Below are positions 4,790 through 11,912 of a stretch of DNA of 64,000 nt, in pieces. The notes below the pieces were generated by a model. That model saw nothing but the letters and a program-made list of their open reading frames with translations. It searched no databases and had not been told where the DNA came from. Where the stretch lies: positions 1,240,001 to 1,304,000 of the forward strand of contig NC_014011.1 in the NCBI RefSeq assembly GCF_000025885.1, given 5' to 3'. The DNA comes from Aminobacterium colombiense DSM 12261 (GTDB lineage: Bacteria > Synergistota > Synergistia > Synergistales > Aminobacteriaceae). Position 1 is the stretch's first letter. Every line of letters begins with the position of its first letter. The position numbers and the translations under genes are program-made.

Positions 4790-4904
4790 TGATGTATGCT
4801 AAGAAATATTTTCATTATTTCGTTGCCGAACAGAACAAAGAGTGATAGTCTTTCTCATGGTCAACAAATTAGAATTGAAGAGGAAACAGGCGGAGGTAAC
4901 GGGA

Positions 4905-6158
4905 ATGAAAATACAGGTTAACTCAGAGATTGGGAAGCTTCGTGCCGTCATTATGCAACCTCCTGGGAAAGGCATCGAACGATGCACTCCCCTTAATATC
5001 GGTGCTCTCGCATGGGACGCCGTTCCAAGCCCCCATAAAGCGGAAGACGAGCATAAGAAATGGGTTGCCACAGTAGAAAAATTTGGAGCCAGAGTTTTTC
5101 TAATGGAAGATCTTTTGCGAAAGATCCTTTCTGTTTCGAAAGTAAAAAAGGAGCTTATCTCTCAACTGGTTCAAACTGAAGAATCCTTTATTACAAGGCA
5201 GACTATGGACGTATTGCAAGAGTATCTTTTAGGTCTCTCTGCTCCTAAACTTGTAGACCAGTTGTTATTTGGTATAACAAAAGATGAGCTTAATAAAGCA
5301 GCCGGAGAGGTTTCCCTTGTAGACCTGGTGGATAAGAAAAATGAGTGGTGCCTCTTCCCCATGTCTAATGTACTCTATTCAAGAGATCCCGCCGCTGTGC
5401 TGGGAAACGGCATTGTTTACGGCAATATGTTTAATCGGGATCGAATTAAAGAGCCCTATTGTATTCGAGCTATTTTTAAACATCATCCTGAATTTCGAAA
5501 TTTGGAATTTAAAACCTGGTATGGAGAAGATCCTGATGATGCTACCCCTGTAGAGGGAGGAAACGTCCATTGTTATAGCCCCAACGTATTTATTATTGGC
5601 ATTAATGAACGAACCCACCCAGCTTCTATCGAAAAGATCGCACAAAGGACAATGGAAGATGGAGCGATCACGGATGTGCTGGCACTGATGTTCGAAAATC
5701 CGAGACTGAGCTCTACAGATTCCATAGGGTTGACTGTGCATGTTGACATGTTCCTCAATATGATTGATTATGATGCCTTTCTTTTCTTTCCTTATATAGA
5801 AAAGAAGATCACTGTGCTTCATATTACCCGCGGCAAGGGGGGGAGGCTTCATGTCAAACGGGAAAGCTCTCTTTTCGGCGCTATTAAAAAAGTGTTGAAA
5901 CTTGATAGTATACGTATTATCAAGGTGGGAGGGGATGAAAGCGAAGCCGTTGCCTTTTCAGAACAGAGAGCTGGCTCTGGAGGAAACACTTTCAACCTTG
6001 AGCCGGGTAAAGTCTGTATATGGGATCGAAATGTAGCGACTATGAAGGCCCTTGAAAAAGGCGGAATAGATGTAGTAGCCGTGGAAGCTGACGAGCTGGT
6101 CAAAGGGGGAGGGGGCCCCCGCTGCTCCACCATGCCTCTCTGGAGAGACGATATTTAG
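4905..6158 (+). CDS. arcA: Arginine deiminase
   Basis: Hydrolyses L-arginine to citrulline and ammonia, the first step of the ATP-yielding arginine deiminase pathway. It is 417 residues from the chosen ATG, which has GGAGG eight bases upstream; an ATG at 4842 would add a 21-residue tail with no ribosome site. Guanidino-modifying-enzyme motifs are all visible: SRDP near residue 160, VEGGNVH near 220, the His-x-Asp motif LTVHVDMF, and the nucleophile Cys407 in GGGGPRCSTMPL near the C-terminus. The carbamate kinase, ornithine transcarbamylase and antiporter genes are not adjacent, so the gene stands alone between oppositely oriented neighbours and has its own terminator. Confidence 0.95.
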   Translation: MKIQVNSEIGKLRAVIMQPPGKGIERCTPLNIGALAWDAVPSPHKAEDEHKKWVATVEKFGARVFLMEDLLRKILSVSKVKKELISQLVQTEESFITRQTMDVLQEYLLGLSAPKLVDQLLFGITKDELNKAAGEVSLVDLVDKKNEWCLFPMSNVLYSRDPAAVLGNGIVYGNMFNRDRIKEPYCIRAIFKHHPEFRNLEFKTWYGEDPDDATPVEGGNVHCYSPNVFIIGINERTHPASIEKIAQRTMEDGAITDVLALMFENPRLSSTDSIGLTVHVDMFLNMIDYDAFLFFPYIEKKITVLHITRGKGGRLHVKRESSLFGAIKKVLKLDSIRIIKVGGDESEAVAFSEQRAGSGGNTFNLEPGKVCIWDRNVATMKALEKGGIDVVAVEADELVKGGGGPRCSTMPLWRDDI

Positions 6159-6183
6159 GAGGGCTTGCGCCCTCCTATTTTTT
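6157..6183 (+). terminator. Terminator of arcA
   Basis: AGGAGGGC, loop TTGC, GCCCTCCT, then ATTTTTTATTTTTT, beginning at the arcA stop codon. Confidence 0.85.
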
Positions 6184-7471
6184 ATTTTTTCAGTTTAGGC
6201 AAAGTGTTGGCACCATGGGGCATGAGCCATGTTTTCAGATTGGTTCCCCGTTTTTGGTAGACCATATCGAGGGCTTCATCAAGAGTCTTTACAACGGTAA
6301 TGCCCGTTCCCTCAAATTTAGAAGGAGGCATTTCAGTCACCATATAGAAATCCCAGTTTTCAGCCACATATCCGATTGTATAGCCTACATATTTTGCAAT
6401 GGTAAATTCACGGCGGACTTCCTTTTCCCGTTCCACTGTGTTAGGAAATTCTTGAAGCATGAACTGAACTTCATCATTGCCGTAGCCTTCATTGCACGCG
6501 CTCAACACTATCATGGATCCGCCATGGGGAGCCGCTTCCATAGCGTTAAAGATGGTTTTTGATGTTTGATAAAAGTTAATATCTTTAGGGTAGCCCCCAG
6601 CCGTTGCAACAACAAGGTCAGCCAACTCTGGGATAGTAACTCCATCTTTTTTATCAACTATCCTGGCCCCTTCGTAAAATGCTTCTTGCCAGTCTCCCGC
6701 TACAGCGAAGGCTATTTTGCCATCGTTTCCAGGGATAGCGTTGAGCATAAAGGTCGGGTGCACCATAGCTGTAGCTTCCATCATATCCAGGTGCATGAGG
6801 TTGTTCTCAAAATTCCCCGATCTGCTGTTCATATTCCGGCCATTTCCAGGAACTGGGTCAAGCGCCAGAGCGTGATTAGCCATTATGGTCTCGTAGGAAG
6901 AAATGCCAGGGAGAATACCTTTGCGGCCTCCGCCCCACCCAGCCATAAAATGGTAGACTATGGCGCCAGTCACAACAATATGGTCGCACTCCAGGGCCTT
7001 TTTGTTCAAATGTACGGCTGTCCCATAGGATGTTGTCCCAACATGAACCATGTCTTCATGAGCCAGACAACGGTGGTCGGTTACAGAAAATCTTTTCGAT
7101 AATTCCGGCCCCAGCAACAAGGCATGTTCCTCTGCCGTCTGCTCTCTGTGGGTTCCCGTAGAGCTGAGAAAAAGTATATCTTCGTCCCGCACTCCTGCCC
7201 TATTAAGTTCTTCTACTATAAATGGTAAATATACCCACATCCTCTGCCAGGCCCTGGTTACATCAGATACTACAATACAAACTGTTTCTCCCGGTTTTAC
7301 GAGCTCACCCAATCTGGGTGAACCTATAGGATTCTCAAGAGCGTGGCGTGTCACTTCTTCTTCAGTACCGATAGATTCAAGGGGTTCGCTATCGATAACA
7401 CCGAGAAGGTTCTTCCGGGGAATCGAAAAAGCTACATCTCCTTTTCCATATTTTATGGTGCTCGAATACAT
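6182..7471 (-). CDS. larA: LarA-family nickel-pincer-dependent 2-hydroxy-acid racemase
   Basis: 429-residue DUF2088/LarA protein. Counted from the ATG at 7471 (AGGAG spaced correctly), the catalytic and nickel-pincer residues fall on the Lactiplantibacillus LarA numbers: His108 (GTHRE), His174 (YHFMAG), Lys184 (GGRKGILPG, which carries the pincer) and His200. LarA interconverts D- and L-lactate; relatives act on malate and other 2-hydroxy acids. It is the second gene after an LctP-family permease (12-base gap), which supports a lactate-like substrate. The leader upstream of the pair points to branched-chain amino-acid control, so a branched-chain 2-hydroxy acid is an alternative. The pincer-synthesis genes larB, larC and larE are not in this window. 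Confidence 0.88.
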   Translation of the reverse strand: MYSSTIKYGKGDVAFSIPRKNLLGVIDSEPLESIGTEEEVTRHALENPIGSPRLGELVKPGETVCIVVSDVTRAWQRMWVYLPFIVEELNRAGVRDEDILFLSSTGTHREQTAEEHALLLGPELSKRFSVTDHRCLAHEDMVHVGTTSYGTAVHLNKKALECDHIVVTGAIVYHFMAGWGGGRKGILPGISSYETIMANHALALDPVPGNGRNMNSRSGNFENNLMHLDMMEATAMVHPTFMLNAIPGNDGKIAFAVAGDWQEAFYEGARIVDKKDGVTIPELADLVVATAGGYPKDINFYQTSKTIFNAMEAAPHGGSMIVLSACNEGYGNDEVQFMLQEFPNTVEREKEVRREFTIAKYVGYTIGYVAENWDFYMVTEMPPSKFEGTGITVVKTLDEALDMVYQKRGTNLKTWLMPHGANTLPKLKK

Positions 7472-7483
7472 CAATACTCCTCC

Positions 7484-8989
7484 TCATGCAGGAAAAATAA
7501 CATATGTGTAGAACATGGCTAAGGATCCGAAGAAGAGAAAGAAACAGAAGGAAGGAATAAGGGTTTTTCGCATCACTTCCCCTTCACGACCCAAAATGGC
7601 TACACAAGCACACACTGCTACCACGTTGTTTGGACATATCATGTTGCCAATAGCTCCCCCCGTGTTCTGCGCTGCAACCACAGGAAGAACATTGATGGAA
7701 AGATTCTTAACCGCTTCTACGTGTAATGGATTAAACATCAGATTGGACCCGAGGTTCGTTCCTGTAACAAAGCTTCCAATCTGACCGATGAGCACTGCCA
7801 CTGCGGGATAGAAGAAACGGGCAATGGTTGCAAAGGTGACAGCCAGAGTGCTTATCTGCCCAGAAAGTTTCATACAATTCACCATGGCAAGAAGCAACCC
7901 CATAGCAACAAGTGCCGGGATAACCCGTTTGAAAGCTTTTACAGCGGATGATACAAAAAATTGGCTATACCCTAATATAAATGAAGCAACAAAGGCACTT
8001 GCTAAAATAACTGTACCTACCCAGACAGTGTAGCCGCCGCCAAAAGAAACAAGAGTTTTCAAGGGGAATGAAAGACGGACAACGACAAGTAACGCACTCA
8101 AGATGAGATAGGGCAACAATGAACGAATAAAGCTGAGTTGGGAACTCCTTTCTTCAGAGGTTTCTTCTGATAGGGATTCATTCTGAGAGTTAAATCTATA
8201 CTCTTCCGGCATTGCCGCGTCTTTTCTGAACCAGAGATATGCTCCAAACAAGAAGGTCCCAGTCATTCCTCCGATCAAACTGGTCAGTTCTGTAACGGAA
8301 ATCAGAAAGTTGCTCATGGTGAAGTTAATGCTTCCCATCATGAGGCCCATGACAACAATATCCTTCCAAATGCCCTTGAAGGCCTTTTTACCGAAGACAA
8401 ATCCGATAATAAGAACAGGAAGCAACAAGTAGCCCAGGGCCATAAAGCGACCGGTCATGGCAGAAACAGGAACAAAGTCAAGACCGGCAGCACCTGAGCC
8501 AACCACTGTTGTAACACCTGCCCCACCCCAGCATACTGGGCACGAGTTGCCAATAAGGCAAGCTGCGGCTGCAATAACGGGATCCATTCCGAGACCTACA
8601 AGGAAGGGGGCTGCCAGAGCTGCCGGTGCACCGGCACCTGCAGCGCCTTCAAGAAATGTTCCAAAGGGAATGGCTAAAAATAATACCATGAGCCTTTTAT
8701 CCCGAGTGACGTGAGAAAGCCCTTGCTTAATAGAATCCATAGCTTTCGAATCCACCATTATGATCAGGAGAGTAAAGGCCGCAAATATAAGCCATACGAT
8801 TCTAATTCCATCGAGAAAACCATTCCAGCTAGTAAGCAAAAGTGCTTCTACCGGGGATTTAAAAACCAGAAACCCAAGAAAAAGAGCGACTATCCAGCTA
8901 ACAGGAGCAACGACTTTCGAAGAGTAGTTAAGACCTGCCATTCCAACAATAATAATTGCAATAGGCAGCAATGCGAGTAAAAAATTCAT
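7484..8989 (-). CDS. LctP-family (lactate permease) transporter
   Basis: 501-residue integral membrane protein with about 13 hydrophobic segments, of the lactate/glycolate permease family. Conserved segments include FGTFLEGAAGAGAPAALAAP and GNSCPVCWGG in the first half and QIGSFVTGTNLGSNL in the second. The start at 8989 is chosen because GGAGG lies eight bases upstream and the protein then begins with a transmembrane helix; a reading frame extends upstream through the attenuator terminator but is not expected to be translated. It is co-transcribed with larA. The substrate could be lactate or another 2-hydroxy or 2-oxo monocarboxylate. Expression is probably governed by the Ile/Leu/Val leader at 9074-9293. 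Confidence 0.9.
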   Translation of the reverse strand: MNFLLALLPIAIIIVGMAGLNYSSKVVAPVSWIVALFLGFLVFKSPVEALLLTSWNGFLDGIRIVWLIFAAFTLLIIMVDSKAMDSIKQGLSHVTRDKRLMVLFLAIPFGTFLEGAAGAGAPAALAAPFLVGLGMDPVIAAAACLIGNSCPVCWGGAGVTTVVGSGAAGLDFVPVSAMTGRFMALGYLLLPVLIIGFVFGKKAFKGIWKDIVVMGLMMGSINFTMSNFLISVTELTSLIGGMTGTFLFGAYLWFRKDAAMPEEYRFNSQNESLSEETSEERSSQLSFIRSLLPYLILSALLVVVRLSFPLKTLVSFGGGYTVWVGTVILASAFVASFILGYSQFFVSSAVKAFKRVIPALVAMGLLLAMVNCMKLSGQISTLAVTFATIARFFYPAVAVLIGQIGSFVTGTNLGSNLMFNPLHVEAVKNLSINVLPVVAAQNTGGAIGNMICPNNVVAVCACVAILGREGEVMRKTLIPSFCFFLFFGSLAMFYTYVIFPA

Positions 8990-9073
8990 AGAATACTTCC
9001 TCCAATTCTCTTTTGAAATAGTGTAATCGTAGCTGCGGAGTACTCCATATATCTTCCCGGGATATTTGGGTAT

Positions 9074-9108
9074 AAAAAAAGAGGCCGGGACCTTAAGGTC
9101 CCGACCTC
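9074..9108 (-). terminator. Attenuator terminator ahead of the lctP-larA operon
   Basis: Minus strand GAGGTCGGGACC, loop TTAA, GGTCCCGGCCTC, then seven T. The 12-bp stem holds one G-U pair. It lies 84 bases before the permease start and 16 bases after the leader-peptide stop, so transcription of the operon must pass it. Its 5' arm (9097-9108) can instead pair with 9141-9152, inside the last leader codons: GGTCCT with GGGACC and CCTC with GAGG. Confidence 0.75.
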
Positions 9109-9123
9109 TCAACAGCCCATGCG

Positions 9124-9213
9124 TCACAGAACTGTCGCCCGAGGATAGGACCGACATGTAATAATGAGCACGAGTATAAGAATAAGAACTATTAATATCG
9201 TTGCTTCTCTCAC
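9124..9213 (-). CDS. Branched-chain-amino-acid leader peptide (29 residues)
   Basis: A GTG-initiated ORF nine bases after AAGGAGG on the minus strand. Residues 6-18 are ILIVLILILVLII, thirteen consecutive branched-chain residues (six Ile, five Leu, two Val), followed by a polar tail TCRSYPRATVL and TGA. The tail codons contain the strand (9141-9152) that can pair with the terminator 5' arm. A ribosome stalled for charged Ile, Leu or Val tRNA would leave that strand free to form an antiterminator; a ribosome reaching the stop would cover it. This matches the ilv-type attenuation design. The alternative is a tiny membrane peptide with one helix. Confidence 0.65.
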   Translation of the reverse strand: MREATILIVLILILVLIITCRSYPRATVL

Positions 9214-9264
9214 GGTCCGTTTCCTCCTTTTTTTAAGCAAACTGTTCTGATGCAATGACACGAG

Positions 9265-9293
9265 ATGTTACCAAAGCTTTGAGTTTTTGTAAA
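9265..9293 (-). promoter_or_regulatory. Promoter of the lctP-larA leader
   Basis: Minus strand TTTACA, 17-base spacer, TAACAT preceded by TGG (extended -10). The predicted start near 9258 gives an untranslated leader of about 45 bases before the peptide. Confidence 0.5.
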
Positions 9294-9336
9294 GTCTTGA
9301 ATTAAAAGGACTTTCTCCCATGGATACTTTGCTGGC

Positions 9337-10428
9337 TTATCGATCCAGACAGGCAAAGAGGTCTGAAGCTTTTTCAGGCGTAGCGATCCTGACATAATTC
9401 TTGCCCAGATTTGGGTAATCTTCACCAGACCTTACGTCGATTCCCTTTGAAGCAAAAACTTCTCCCAAATGAACATCTCGATCTGAAACAGAAACGAGAG
9501 ATATGGGGCAGCTGTTATATGTAGTTGCCACTCTATATCCTCTTTCTTTGAGTCCGGAAACGAGTACTTCTTTCTGTTCCCCTATCAATTTACGCACTGT
9601 TTCGAGAAGAGTCCCGCCTCGCAGGGCTTCCCGTGCTAAAAGGGCGCTTACTGAGGGCATTGGGAAGGGGAGGTCGCCTTTATCGTAGAATTTTCCAAGA
9701 TTTCCGCTAAACACCCCATAGCCCACACGAGTTCCAGCAAAGTGAAATCCTTTTGTCAATGTTCGAGTCACAATTACGTTCTCATATCTCGGCACAAGCT
9801 GCATGGCCGACGCTTCTTTCGGAGCATAATCACAATAGGCCTCATCCACTATGACAATGACTCCAAGTTTATGGGCCCTGGCTACAAGTGCTTCTATCTG
9901 GTCAAGAGGGATAAGCTGCCCTGTGGGATTATTAGGGTTATCTACATAGAGCAGGGTATGCCCTTCATTCAACGCGCCAAGCAATGGGTCCACATGAAAA
10001 CTGAAATTGTCTTCAGGGTTCATGGCAATGCCTTCGAAGCGAGCCCCGGTGACCCGCACTTCAGTAATATATTCTACAAACTGAGGAATATAGCCCAATA
10101 CTGAAGAACGATCATCAAGAAACACCTTGTTGATCCTTTCTAATACCTGCATGGAACCATAACCAACTTTTACCTGATCTTCTCTTATGTCTGCAAAGTC
10201 TTTCCAGTAATGACATATTTCTTCCAAAAGGGTTTTGTAAGAAGTATCCCCCGTTTTCCACATATTTGAAACCCAGTCAAAATTGCGAATGAATTCTTCG
10301 ACCCCCGGAACGTGAGGCAATGTCGACTCCAGGCCATTGCAATTAAGGACTACAGGATAGTGAGCTTCGTGAATGTAACTCCCCCGCTCAAAATCTTTGA
10401 GGTGGGGTTTTACTTTAGGGTTCCACAT
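9337..10428 (-). CDS. Class I/II PLP aminotransferase, HisC/aromatic type
   Basis: 363-residue fold-type-I aminotransferase. It shows the PLP-binding NPNNPTG (residues 164-170), VDEAYCDY with the Asp that contacts the pyridine nitrogen, Lys226 in TRTLTKGF as the Schiff-base lysine, and a C-terminal YVRIATP arginine for the substrate carboxylate. The family includes histidinol-phosphate and aromatic aminotransferases. The start at 10428 has AGGAGG upstream and overlaps the transporter gene by 14 bases, so the two are translationally coupled. No histidine genes are nearby, and the operon leader contains aromatic codons, so an aromatic amino-acid aminotransferase is the favoured role (inference). 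Confidence 0.85.
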   Translation of the reverse strand: MWNPKVKPHLKDFERGSYIHEAHYPVVLNCNGLESTLPHVPGVEEFIRNFDWVSNMWKTGDTSYKTLLEEICHYWKDFADIREDQVKVGYGSMQVLERINKVFLDDRSSVLGYIPQFVEYITEVRVTGARFEGIAMNPEDNFSFHVDPLLGALNEGHTLLYVDNPNNPTGQLIPLDQIEALVARAHKLGVIVIVDEAYCDYAPKEASAMQLVPRYENVIVTRTLTKGFHFAGTRVGYGVFSGNLGKFYDKGDLPFPMPSVSALLAREALRGGTLLETVRKLIGEQKEVLVSGLKERGYRVATTYNSCPISLVSVSDRDVHLGEVFASKGIDVRSGEDYPNLGKNYVRIATPEKASDLFACLDR

Positions 10429-11620
10429 GCACTTTCGCCTCCTCAAATTTATCAGGAACTGCCGGCATCTCTTTGCCACGCAGCCTCATAAGCCCTACAG
10501 TAGCCAGAGGAATAACCATCACCGCAAGAAAATACCACGCCATGAAAGAATAACCGCGAGCTATGAGAGCGACAAGACCGGCCTTGGCACAGATGAAGCA
10601 AACCACTAAAACGGCAAGCCCTACAACACCTCTCATCTTCGGAGACATCTCTCCTCCCTTTTCCTGGTAAACCGAATTGATCCGCTCATTGAGTCCGTGT
10701 ACAAAACCCGTAATTGTTTCTATACTTGTTCCAAAAAGCATCAACACATAGGCAGAAAGAAGAACTCCCCCTCCAAGGTGGCCTTTAAGAATGCCAAAGA
10801 TAGGAACCGACTCCTCCAGAACTGCCGGAAAAACAGGAGCCATGGCAAGGTATTCGATAAAGGCAGGAATCATCATAAGGATTGAAGCCACTATGCCGTT
10901 GATGACAGCATCCCGTCTTGTTTTTATTATATCTTGTAACGCATACAGCACCAGAAGAAATGAGACCATATTGTAAAGGGTGTATTTTATGCCCCCCATA
11001 AGCCAATTTGAACTTGTCGCGACACCATGGTCTCGAATAAAACTGCCAAAAACCCCATCCATTCCAAAGTGTCGAACTGTAGCTACAAGGAAAATAAACA
11101 TTACGGCATACAGGAAGAATGACCAGTATGAAAGAATGGTTGAAATTACTTTTCCTCCGGCAAACAGGAGAATGGAAGTACCTACAAGAAGGACAGTTAC
11201 GCCAACCCAGTAGGAAATGCCAAACCATTGCTGAAGAATGGTTCCAGCCGCAGAGGATAAAATGCCGCCCACAAGAACCACCAGGAAGATATATCCCGCT
11301 TCAAAAACAAGCCAGGTTGAGCCAGGAAGTAGGCTCTTAAAGAAGCTGCGGTAATTGTACAGACGAAATTTGCGAGCATAATCAAAGGTAAGGATGCCTA
11401 CAAGAGCAAAACAAACAGTAGAAACTACCATGCCGTATAAACCCTCGGCAAGTCCGTTCATCATGAAGAATTCAACAAGCTCCCTGCCTGTTGCGTATCC
11501 GCCGCCAATAAGCACAGACTGACATAAAAACCCAATCATCAGCCATCGGCTAAACCATTTGACCTGCGTAATATCCAGTAATTTTGAGATGATAGAACCC
11601 TTTGGGGCATCCTTTTTCAT
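10415..11620 (-). CDS. YkvI-like membrane protein, probable amino-acid transporter
   Basis: 401-residue protein with about 11 transmembrane segments, of the COG3949 (YkvI) family, distantly related to APC-type amino-acid transporters. The first helix carries the signature IGGGYATGRELVEFF, a broken helix typical of sodium-coupled LeuT-fold carriers. The ATG at 11620 is chosen (GAGGA 11 bases upstream); an upstream extension would run through the attenuator terminator. The gene overlaps the aminotransferase gene, which implies that the carrier and enzyme share a substrate. The leader at 11719-11912 suggests an aromatic amino acid. Confidence 0.82.
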   Translation of the reverse strand: MKKDAPKGSIISKLLDITQVKWFSRWLMIGFLCQSVLIGGGYATGRELVEFFMMNGLAEGLYGMVVSTVCFALVGILTFDYARKFRLYNYRSFFKSLLPGSTWLVFEAGYIFLVVLVGGILSSAAGTILQQWFGISYWVGVTVLLVGTSILLFAGGKVISTILSYWSFFLYAVMFIFLVATVRHFGMDGVFGSFIRDHGVATSSNWLMGGIKYTLYNMVSFLLVLYALQDIIKTRRDAVINGIVASILMMIPAFIEYLAMAPVFPAVLEESVPIFGILKGHLGGGVLLSAYVLMLFGTSIETITGFVHGLNERINSVYQEKGGEMSPKMRGVVGLAVLVVCFICAKAGLVALIARGYSFMAWYFLAVMVIPLATVGLMRLRGKEMPAVPDKFEEAKVHVEP

Positions 11621-11718
11621 CTTTTTCACCGTCCTCTTAAGAAAATAATTAAAACTCTGTTTCTTGAAATGGGGGCTCCATATCTCTGCTCCTTTCCACC
11701 CCCGAGATATAAAAATAT

Positions 11719-11763
11719 AAAAAAAGGGCGGGGCCCCTCTCATAGAAAAAAGGGGCCCCGCCC
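11719..11763 (-). terminator. Attenuator terminator ahead of the transporter-aminotransferase operon
   Basis: Minus strand GGGCGGGGCCCC, 14-base loop, GGGGCCCCGCCC, then seven T: a 12-bp all-GC stem about 100 bases upstream of the first gene. Its 5' arm (11752-11763) can instead pair with 11796-11807 (GGGTCCC with GGGGCCC), within the last leader codons. A further hairpin at 11782-11812 can sequester that strand. Confidence 0.75.
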
Positions 11764-11779
11764 TAAAAGACCAACGCAA

Positions 11780-11875
11780 TTAAGCGTCGATCCCAGGTGA
11801 GGGACCCACGCTAAACCAATAAAGGAAAAAGCGGTTTATCGATAATGTTTCTTGAGTTTTCTCTATATTCTTCAT
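11780..11875 (-). CDS. Aromatic-amino-acid leader peptide (31 residues)
   Basis: ORF of 31 codons with the run FFLYWF at codons 16-21 (TTT TTC CTT TAT TGG TTT). Seven codons later comes the strand that can disrupt the terminator stem, the same arrangement as in the branched-chain leader 2.6 kb away. An in-frame ATG at 11893 would add MIWFLT. No good ribosome site is visible before either ATG. The best promoter (11884-11912) would start the RNA at about the ATG at 11875, implying a leaderless message. The peptide is therefore less certain than its partner. Confidence 0.5.
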   Translation of the reverse strand: MKNIEKTQETLSINRFFLYWFSVGPSPGIDA

Positions 11876-11883
11876 GGTTAGGA

Positions 11884-11912
11884 ACCATATCATTTTTCCA
11901 TGGGGGCGTCAA
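11884..11912 (-). promoter_or_regulatory. Promoter of the aromatic leader
   Basis: Minus strand TTGACG, 17-base spacer, TATGGT, located just after the terminator of the tRNA-Ser gene. The predicted start is near 11877. Confidence 0.5.

Follow-up and report, generated by a model that had tools for sequence, protein, structure and literature searches.

Putative ribosome-mediated attenuators before two transport operons of Aminobacterium colombiense and a related family of leaders across Synergistota

Two neighbouring operons, each preceded by a short leader reading frame and an intrinsic terminator, lie on the minus strand of a 64,000-nucleotide (nt) stretch of the genome of Aminobacterium colombiense DSM 12261 (NC_014011.1, positions 1,240,001 to 1,304,000). 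The whole stretch, which lies in a single contig, is referred to as the window, and the genome as G000. An initial annotation, made from the letters alone, had read the two leaders as attenuators responding to isoleucine, leucine and valine (Ile/Leu/Val; leader 1) and to phenylalanine, tyrosine and tryptophan (Phe/Tyr/Trp; leader 2). Leaders, terminators and complementary tails were confirmed at their places on this strand by reading the sequence. The features are listed below with their positions in the window (ORF, open reading frame; SD, Shine-Dalgarno sequence).

6182–7471, minus: LarA homologue, nearest family LarAH10 (hydrophobic 2-hydroxyacid racemase; PF09861, NF052525)
7484–8989, minus: LctP-family transporter, first gene of the operon with the Ile/Leu/Val leader (Pfam PF02652)
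9072–9110, minus: intrinsic terminator of leader 1 with U tract (strands 3 and 4; stem 9110–9079; −27.1 kcal/mol)
9112–9135, minus: hairpin around the stop codon of leader 1, nested in the antiterminator (fold)
9141–9153, minus: predicted antiterminator strand of leader 1 (the tail, strand 2), CGGTCCTATCCTC, inside the ORF (fold and swap test)
9160–9198, minus: Ile/Leu/Val control codons of leader 1 (ORF reading)
9124–9213, minus: leader ORF 1, GTG start at 9213, peptide VREATILIVLILILVLIITCRSYPRATVL, stop at 9126–9124 (orthologues in genomes G001, G013, G029, G073 and G074)
9223–9228, minus: SD AGGAGG of leader 1 (strand 1; family-wide covariation of tail and SD)
9265–9293, minus: promoter-like site of leader 1, TTTACA-17-TAACAT, with TG before the second hexamer (consensus scan)
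9337–10428, minus: pyridoxal-phosphate-dependent aminotransferase, HisC-like, overlapping the end of the transporter gene (PF00155, TIGR01141)
10415–11620, minus: predicted LeuT-fold transporter, first gene of the operon with the aromatic leader (structure model; without Pfam or NCBIfam family)
11718–11764, minus: intrinsic terminator of leader 2 with U tract (stem 11764–11725; −38.1 kcal/mol)
11769–11792, minus: hairpin around the stop codon of leader 2, nested in the antiterminator (−12.7 kcal/mol)
11783–11812, minus: tail of leader 2, with the predicted antiterminator core GTGGGTCCC at 11809–11801 (fold)
11813–11830, minus: aromatic control codons FFLYWF of leader 2 (ORF reading and orthologues)
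11780–11875, minus: leader ORF 2, ATG start at 11875, peptide MKNIEKTQETLSINRFFLYWFSVGPSPGIDA (conserved start, probably leaderless)
11884–11912, minus: promoter-like site of leader 2, TTGACG-17-TATGGT, with TG before the second hexamer (kept in three species)

Leader 1 consists of AGGAGG, a GTG start, the control codons ILIVLILILVLII, the tail, the stop, 13 nt and a terminator of 14 pairs. In leader 2, the FFLYWF codons are followed by the tail, the stop (11782–11780), 15 nt and a terminator of 17 pairs. The distances of 13 and 15 nt replace the 16–17 bases between stop and terminator given at first. The parts of a classical attenuator are all present: a leader ORF with a start signal, a run of control codons, a terminator before the gene and a predicted, mutually exclusive antiterminator. 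The predicted antiterminator of leader 1 folds with −29.7 kcal/mol against −27.1 kcal/mol for its terminator, and that of leader 2 (tail to arm) with −34.9 against −38.1 kcal/mol. The tail of leader 2 also folds as a hairpin on itself (−19.6 kcal/mol). In leader 1, the SD together with the following ..GGACC resembles the 5' arm of the terminator, and pairing with the tail is possible.

An ATG at 11893 had been proposed as the start of leader 2 but was rejected, as it lies partly within the −10 hexamer of the promoter-like site TTGACG-17-TATGGT; it is the ATG at 11875 that is conserved. TTGACG, 17 nt, the −10 box, exactly 8 nt and then an ATG without SD were found in three Aminobacterium genomes. 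Because the −10 box precedes the SD-less ATG by only 8 nt in all three, the promoter sequence suggests that ORF 2 is probably leaderless or nearly so.

Chance was regarded as unlikely in the initial annotation, and a control bears this out. The window was scanned for an SD, an ORF rich in one class of codons and a terminator, alongside 40 first-order Markov resamplings that kept the local composition. Leader 1 was the sole unit in the real window, and none of the resamplings contained a comparable one. The scan requires an SD, so leader 2 falls outside it; its support is conservation in two congeners and about 15 further genomes. The lctP gene was preceded by Ile/Leu/Val leaders in G000, G001, G013, G029, G073 and G074, with G053 as a weak case. 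The transporter gene was preceded by leaders in about 18 Synergistota genomes, and of 80 named loci from a wide range of phyla, none but those in Synergistota showed a convincing one. The transporter leaders mostly comprise 28–31 codons with a Phe/Tyr/Trp-rich middle and a tail that reads GSPSWRG, GTPP or GPSP. In the orthologous leaders of both operons, the codon class was kept while the peptide changed. Leaders of this kind are thus present across Synergistota relatives, where their absence had been named as a possible refutation.

The pairing between tail and terminator was examined by swap tests, which ask whether a tail pairs more strongly with the arm of its own leader than with those of other leaders. 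Among 89 leaders, the tails paired with their own arms at −28.3 kcal/mol and with other arms at −22.7 kcal/mol (z = −15.3). The effect persisted in a nonredundant set of 27 (z = −9.8), with the p value at the limit of 20,000 permutations. Within the LctP leaders, p was 0.0055 for the antiterminator tail. The core hexamers change together: GGGTCC occurs with GGACCC or GGGCCC, GGGACC with GGTCCC, GGATCC with GGATCC and GGGTTC with GAACCC. The tail also co-varied with the 20 nt upstream of the start codon, which include the SD (n = 89, z = −7.4; nonredundant, z = −5.6), while a control of tail against ORF start in 40 later hits gave no covariation (z = +0.9). The strand that competes with the antiterminator would therefore be the leader's own ribosome-binding region. 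The predicted antiterminators are in this way demonstrated by comparative swap tests and not by folding alone. A fixed column register on a MAFFT alignment was given up in favour of these tests, as one-base shifts blurred it. Dinucleotide-shuffle tests of single leaders were also dropped as evidence, since GC-rich arms are sticky and the E. coli ilvL control failed as well.

A covariance model (R1) was built from the tails and terminators of 14 transporter leaders. At E ≤ 0.01, it had hits, before unrelated genes, in 114 of the 185 Synergistota genomes; a retrained model (R2) had hits in 116 of them at E ≤ 1e-5. Across 35 genomes that do not belong to Synergistota, no match of either model fell below E = 1e-3; all these E-values are rough, as the calibration was shortened. 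Inspection of 39 top R1 hits, hardly any of them at the transporter, showed in almost all cases a leader that is preceded by an SD and ends where expected. A further 40 hits, chosen by rank and not by leader content, carried an SD-led leader ORF in every case. Leader 2 matched R2 with E = 5e-19, but it is part of the training set. Leader 1 reached E = 0.0019 in 92 kb, and its orthologue in G029, which lies outside the training set, E = 2e-11. Leader 1 is tentatively placed in the sequence family, on the strength of this orthologue and of its structure.

The control codons agree with the genes behind them in several cases. Leucine (Leu) codons precede 2-isopropylmalate synthase (LeuA), threonine (Thr) codons homoserine dehydrogenase, Ile/Leu/Val codons the small subunit of acetolactate synthase (IlvN) and methionine (Met) codons O-acetylhomoserine (OAH) sulfhydrylase, all four above the curated cut-offs. 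Ile/Leu/Val codons were also found before IlvC-like operons (IlvC recognised by eye only) and Met codons before MetN and MetQ (best hits, below the curated cut-offs). A. colombiense itself has at least nine leaders of this kind, namely the two in the window and seven far away (genome positions):

81635: Ile/Leu/Val codons
91738: Leu codons, before LeuA
525115: Thr codons, before homoserine dehydrogenase (by similarity to locus L230)
557222: Phe/Tyr codons, before a PaaK-like gene
596762: Ile/Leu/Val codons, before an SNF symporter
1709951: Met codons, before a MetN-like gene
1846479: aromatic codons, before a membrane protein (weak model score)

On contig C7 of genome G178, three leaders whose tails and terminators are almost identical stand within about 7 kb (10147, 13280 and 17184; L163, L226 and L227). 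Phe/Tyr codons precede the transporter, and Ile/Leu/Val codons precede a symporter-like gene (recognised by eye) and a transporter paralogue. R1, although trained on transporter leaders only, also recovered ilvN, met and thr leaders. This trio and the reach of R1 favour one duplicated cassette with exchanged control codons over independent origins, although shared pairing constraints could imitate part of this evidence. With somewhat better than even confidence, we propose that one ancestral cassette (an SD-mimicking terminator arm, the tail and the stop hairpin) was duplicated and retargeted across the phylum by swapping the control codons only. Starvation for Leu, Ile/Val, Met, Thr or Phe/Tyr/Trp would be read by one RNA device, in which the tail also acts as an anti-SD strand limiting translation of its own leader. 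Both leaders of the window would belong to this cassette or derive from it, with the control codons exchanged and the part from tail to terminator kept.

Both leaders are very probably ribosome-mediated transcription attenuators of the classical type. When the amino acid is ample, the ribosome would reach the stop codon and cover the tail, and the terminator would form. When charged transfer RNA (tRNA) is scarce, a stall in the control codons would leave the tail free to pair with the 5' arm of the terminator, as complementarity and covariation indicate, and the operon would be transcribed. For the first 12 leaders, the effect of ribosome position was modelled, with the RNA taken as masked up to 13 nt beyond the A site. 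In most of them, sequestration of the terminator arm was high with the ribosome in the control codons and little or none at the stop. In most of the family, the tail, which co-varies with the leader's own SD region, may also pair with it, so that an untranslated or already translated leader would default to termination and silence its own start. During a stall in the control codons, this pairing is possibly blocked by a following ribosome on the SD or by the stalled ribosome between the two strands. In leader 2 of Aminobacterium, which has no SD, the self-hairpin of the tail can replace the SD as the competing structure.

Several observations weigh against this interpretation. Leader 2 lacks an SD, leader 1 was missed by R1 and about a dozen Synergistota homologues of the transporter have no recognisable leader. 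In addition, most single leaders did not fold significantly better than their dinucleotide shuffles; the E. coli ilvL control behaved likewise (p = 0.11). The fold energies therefore illustrate the antiterminators and do not prove them.

A different kind of control by the leader peptide would be arrest of the nascent chain, as in TnaC: the tail peptide (GSPPG, GSPSWRG, GPSP) would stall the ribosome when the free amino acid is in excess, and the genes would be switched on in excess. The tail peptide is indeed conserved, and transport and catabolic-type targets (PaaK-like, LctP) are among the genes concerned. The tail codons, however, track base pairing and not a fixed peptide, as GGGTCC, GGGACC, GGATCC and GGGTTC each pair with a matching arm and the tails vary between GSPPG, VGPPLRADA and CRSYPRATVL. 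The control residues are runs of one class instead of one fixed residue, and starvation would be the expected signal for the biosynthetic targets (LeuA, IlvN, homoserine dehydrogenase). Peptide arrest is thus considered very unlikely. That the short ORFs are incidental to ordinary terminators or to T-box or riboswitch elements is scarcely credible, even though T-boxes are common in Synergistota (133 of 185 genomes). No Rfam match was found at either leader or at sampled family members, and none to the T-box (RF00230) in the window. Moreover, ORF, SD and codon class are conserved together, and an ORF was present in each of the 40 hits chosen by rank.

Both leaders had also been explained as parts of a regional module, in which the two adjacent attenuators together would tie aromatic to branched-chain amino acids by way of transport, transamination and racemisation. 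The two operons do adjoin in G000 and G001. Yet G002 has the transporter operon without lctP-larA and gives no lctP match, each operon occurs elsewhere without the other, and the seven additional leaders of A. colombiense lie far away. A like layout stands before unrelated genes across the genome and the phylum, which makes such a module highly improbable.

Most descriptions of leader-peptide attenuation concern Proteobacteria and Actinobacteria; scattered ones come from Firmicutes. The mechanism itself is already known, and the layout, which had been called unusual, is not: E. coli leuL and ilvL share the order of parts. Their leaders have some 30 codons, the control codons stand mid-ORF, the same peptide then runs on into the tail, and the terminator follows the stop after 18 and 20 nt. 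These E. coli attenuators belong to another phylum and do not match R2. In contrast to them, one cassette of tail and terminator serves Leu, Ile/Val, Met, Thr and aromatic codons in Synergistota, and the tail co-varies with the SD region of the leader. Actinobacterial attenuators (trp, leuS, ilvB, cys) likewise have a leader peptide, a terminator and an antiterminator built on complementary triples, but their targets and sequences differ and no common cassette across amino acids is described there (PMC1262725). The trpL peptide of Sinorhizobium meliloti starts at the 5' end of the transcript, as leader 2 presumably does; however, it has 14 residues and serves Trp biosynthesis, and its 5' end is known (PMC7298713). 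Staphylococcal and other firmicute leader peptides also respond to amino acids outside Proteobacteria and Actinobacteria, but in single operons and with different RNA folds (PMC5794164, PMC2965389). The genome of Thermovirga lienii (Synergistota) had been screened for RNA motifs (PMC6429828). A search of the main texts of open-access papers found no account of such attenuators in Synergistota. Apparently new are the phylum, the shared cassette with exchangeable codons, the SD-competing strand and the clues to substrates. The initial reading of two ribosome-mediated attenuators, one aromatic and one branched-chain, as a notable case in a probable member of Synergistota is supported.

As the codons name the amino acid, the family can be used to annotate the genes behind the leaders. 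By this code, the unclassified family of LeuT-fold transporters would be linked to aromatic amino acids, the LctP-LarAH10 operon to branched-chain metabolism and PaaK-like aryl-CoA ligases to a biosynthetic or salvage role. For both operons in the window, the match of codons and pathway is a prediction. The transporter model (predicted local distance difference test, pLDDT, 82.7) had a LeuT fold by Foldseek and was closest to amino-acid and solute symporters; its sequence gave no match to solved structures. It may be YkvI-like; the tblastn matches on plasmids are mainly named 'hypothetical' or 'membrane protein'. The best guess is a hydrophobic amino-acid transporter, because aromatic codons precede it in most genomes and Ile/Leu/Val codons precede one paralogue. 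Responding to Phe/Tyr/Trp, leader 2 would control this transporter, of aromatic (hydrophobic) amino acids, together with the aminotransferase.

Leader 1 would read Ile/Leu/Val. The operon under its control would take up hydrophobic 2-hydroxy acids, probably branched ones, through LctP and invert their configuration by the LarAH10-type enzyme. The LarAH10 group racemises mainly hydrophobic 2-hydroxy acids (PMC11770544). A single chain from amino acid to 2-oxo acid to 2-hydroxy acid running through both operons, as proposed initially, was not upheld; a hydrophobic 2-hydroxy acid as substrate of lctP-larA alone agrees with the LarAH10 family (PMC11770544). The most likely purpose of lctP-larA would be salvage to branched-chain amino acids, as control by Ile/Leu/Val starvation suggests; about an even chance is given to each of the salvage roles. 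Some results speak against these assignments. LarA scored 490.6 bits against NF052525, below the cut-off of 540, which still makes it the best family by over 100 bits; LarAH10 is its nearest family only, and membership was not assigned. The characterised enzymes of the group favour linear over branched side chains, LarAH10 itself may act on gluconate, and for two of three tested members the true substrates have possibly not yet been found, according to the authors (PMC11770544). The aminotransferase reached 165.8 bits against histidinol-phosphate transaminase (HisC, TIGR01141), below the cut-off of 276.6. Downstream, an arginine deiminase gene (4842–6158, below the curated cut-off) converges on the end of larA, with a strong terminator at 6156–6177.

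Further observations were made beside the main family. The T-box model matched 133 of the 185 Synergistota genomes, 47 of them over the cut-off, and T-boxes and leader-peptide attenuators therefore coexist there. Phe/Tyr attenuators stand many times before PaaK-like aryl-CoA ligases (L193, L197, L204, L209, L211, L215, L217, L219, L221, L225, L278, L281 and G000:C1:557222), which suggests salvage of arylacetates to aromatic amino acids and not only degradation. At L206 (G008:C113), the leader before a PaaK-like ligase has Met codons (MMMCMM), an odd pairing of codons and gene. Aromatic or mixed leaders at L216, L229 and G000:C1:1846479 precede a membrane protein of 393–397 amino acids (no family above the cut-off), followed by an apparent hydrolase gene.

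Searches for a tRNA or an Rfam element in the space that follows some Ile/Leu/Val leaders were negative; a small ORF lies there instead. It has 39–55 codons. The N terminus diverges, the C terminus, (W)RGPFEGYR, hardly varies, and the ORF matched no Pfam or NCBIfam family and nothing in the literature search. It was seen at L212 (464–605, about 81803–81944 in G000:C1), L196, L200–L202, L210, L213, L214, L220, L224, L279, L280 and L282, with two copies in tandem in L214, and is a candidate for a new small protein or peptide.

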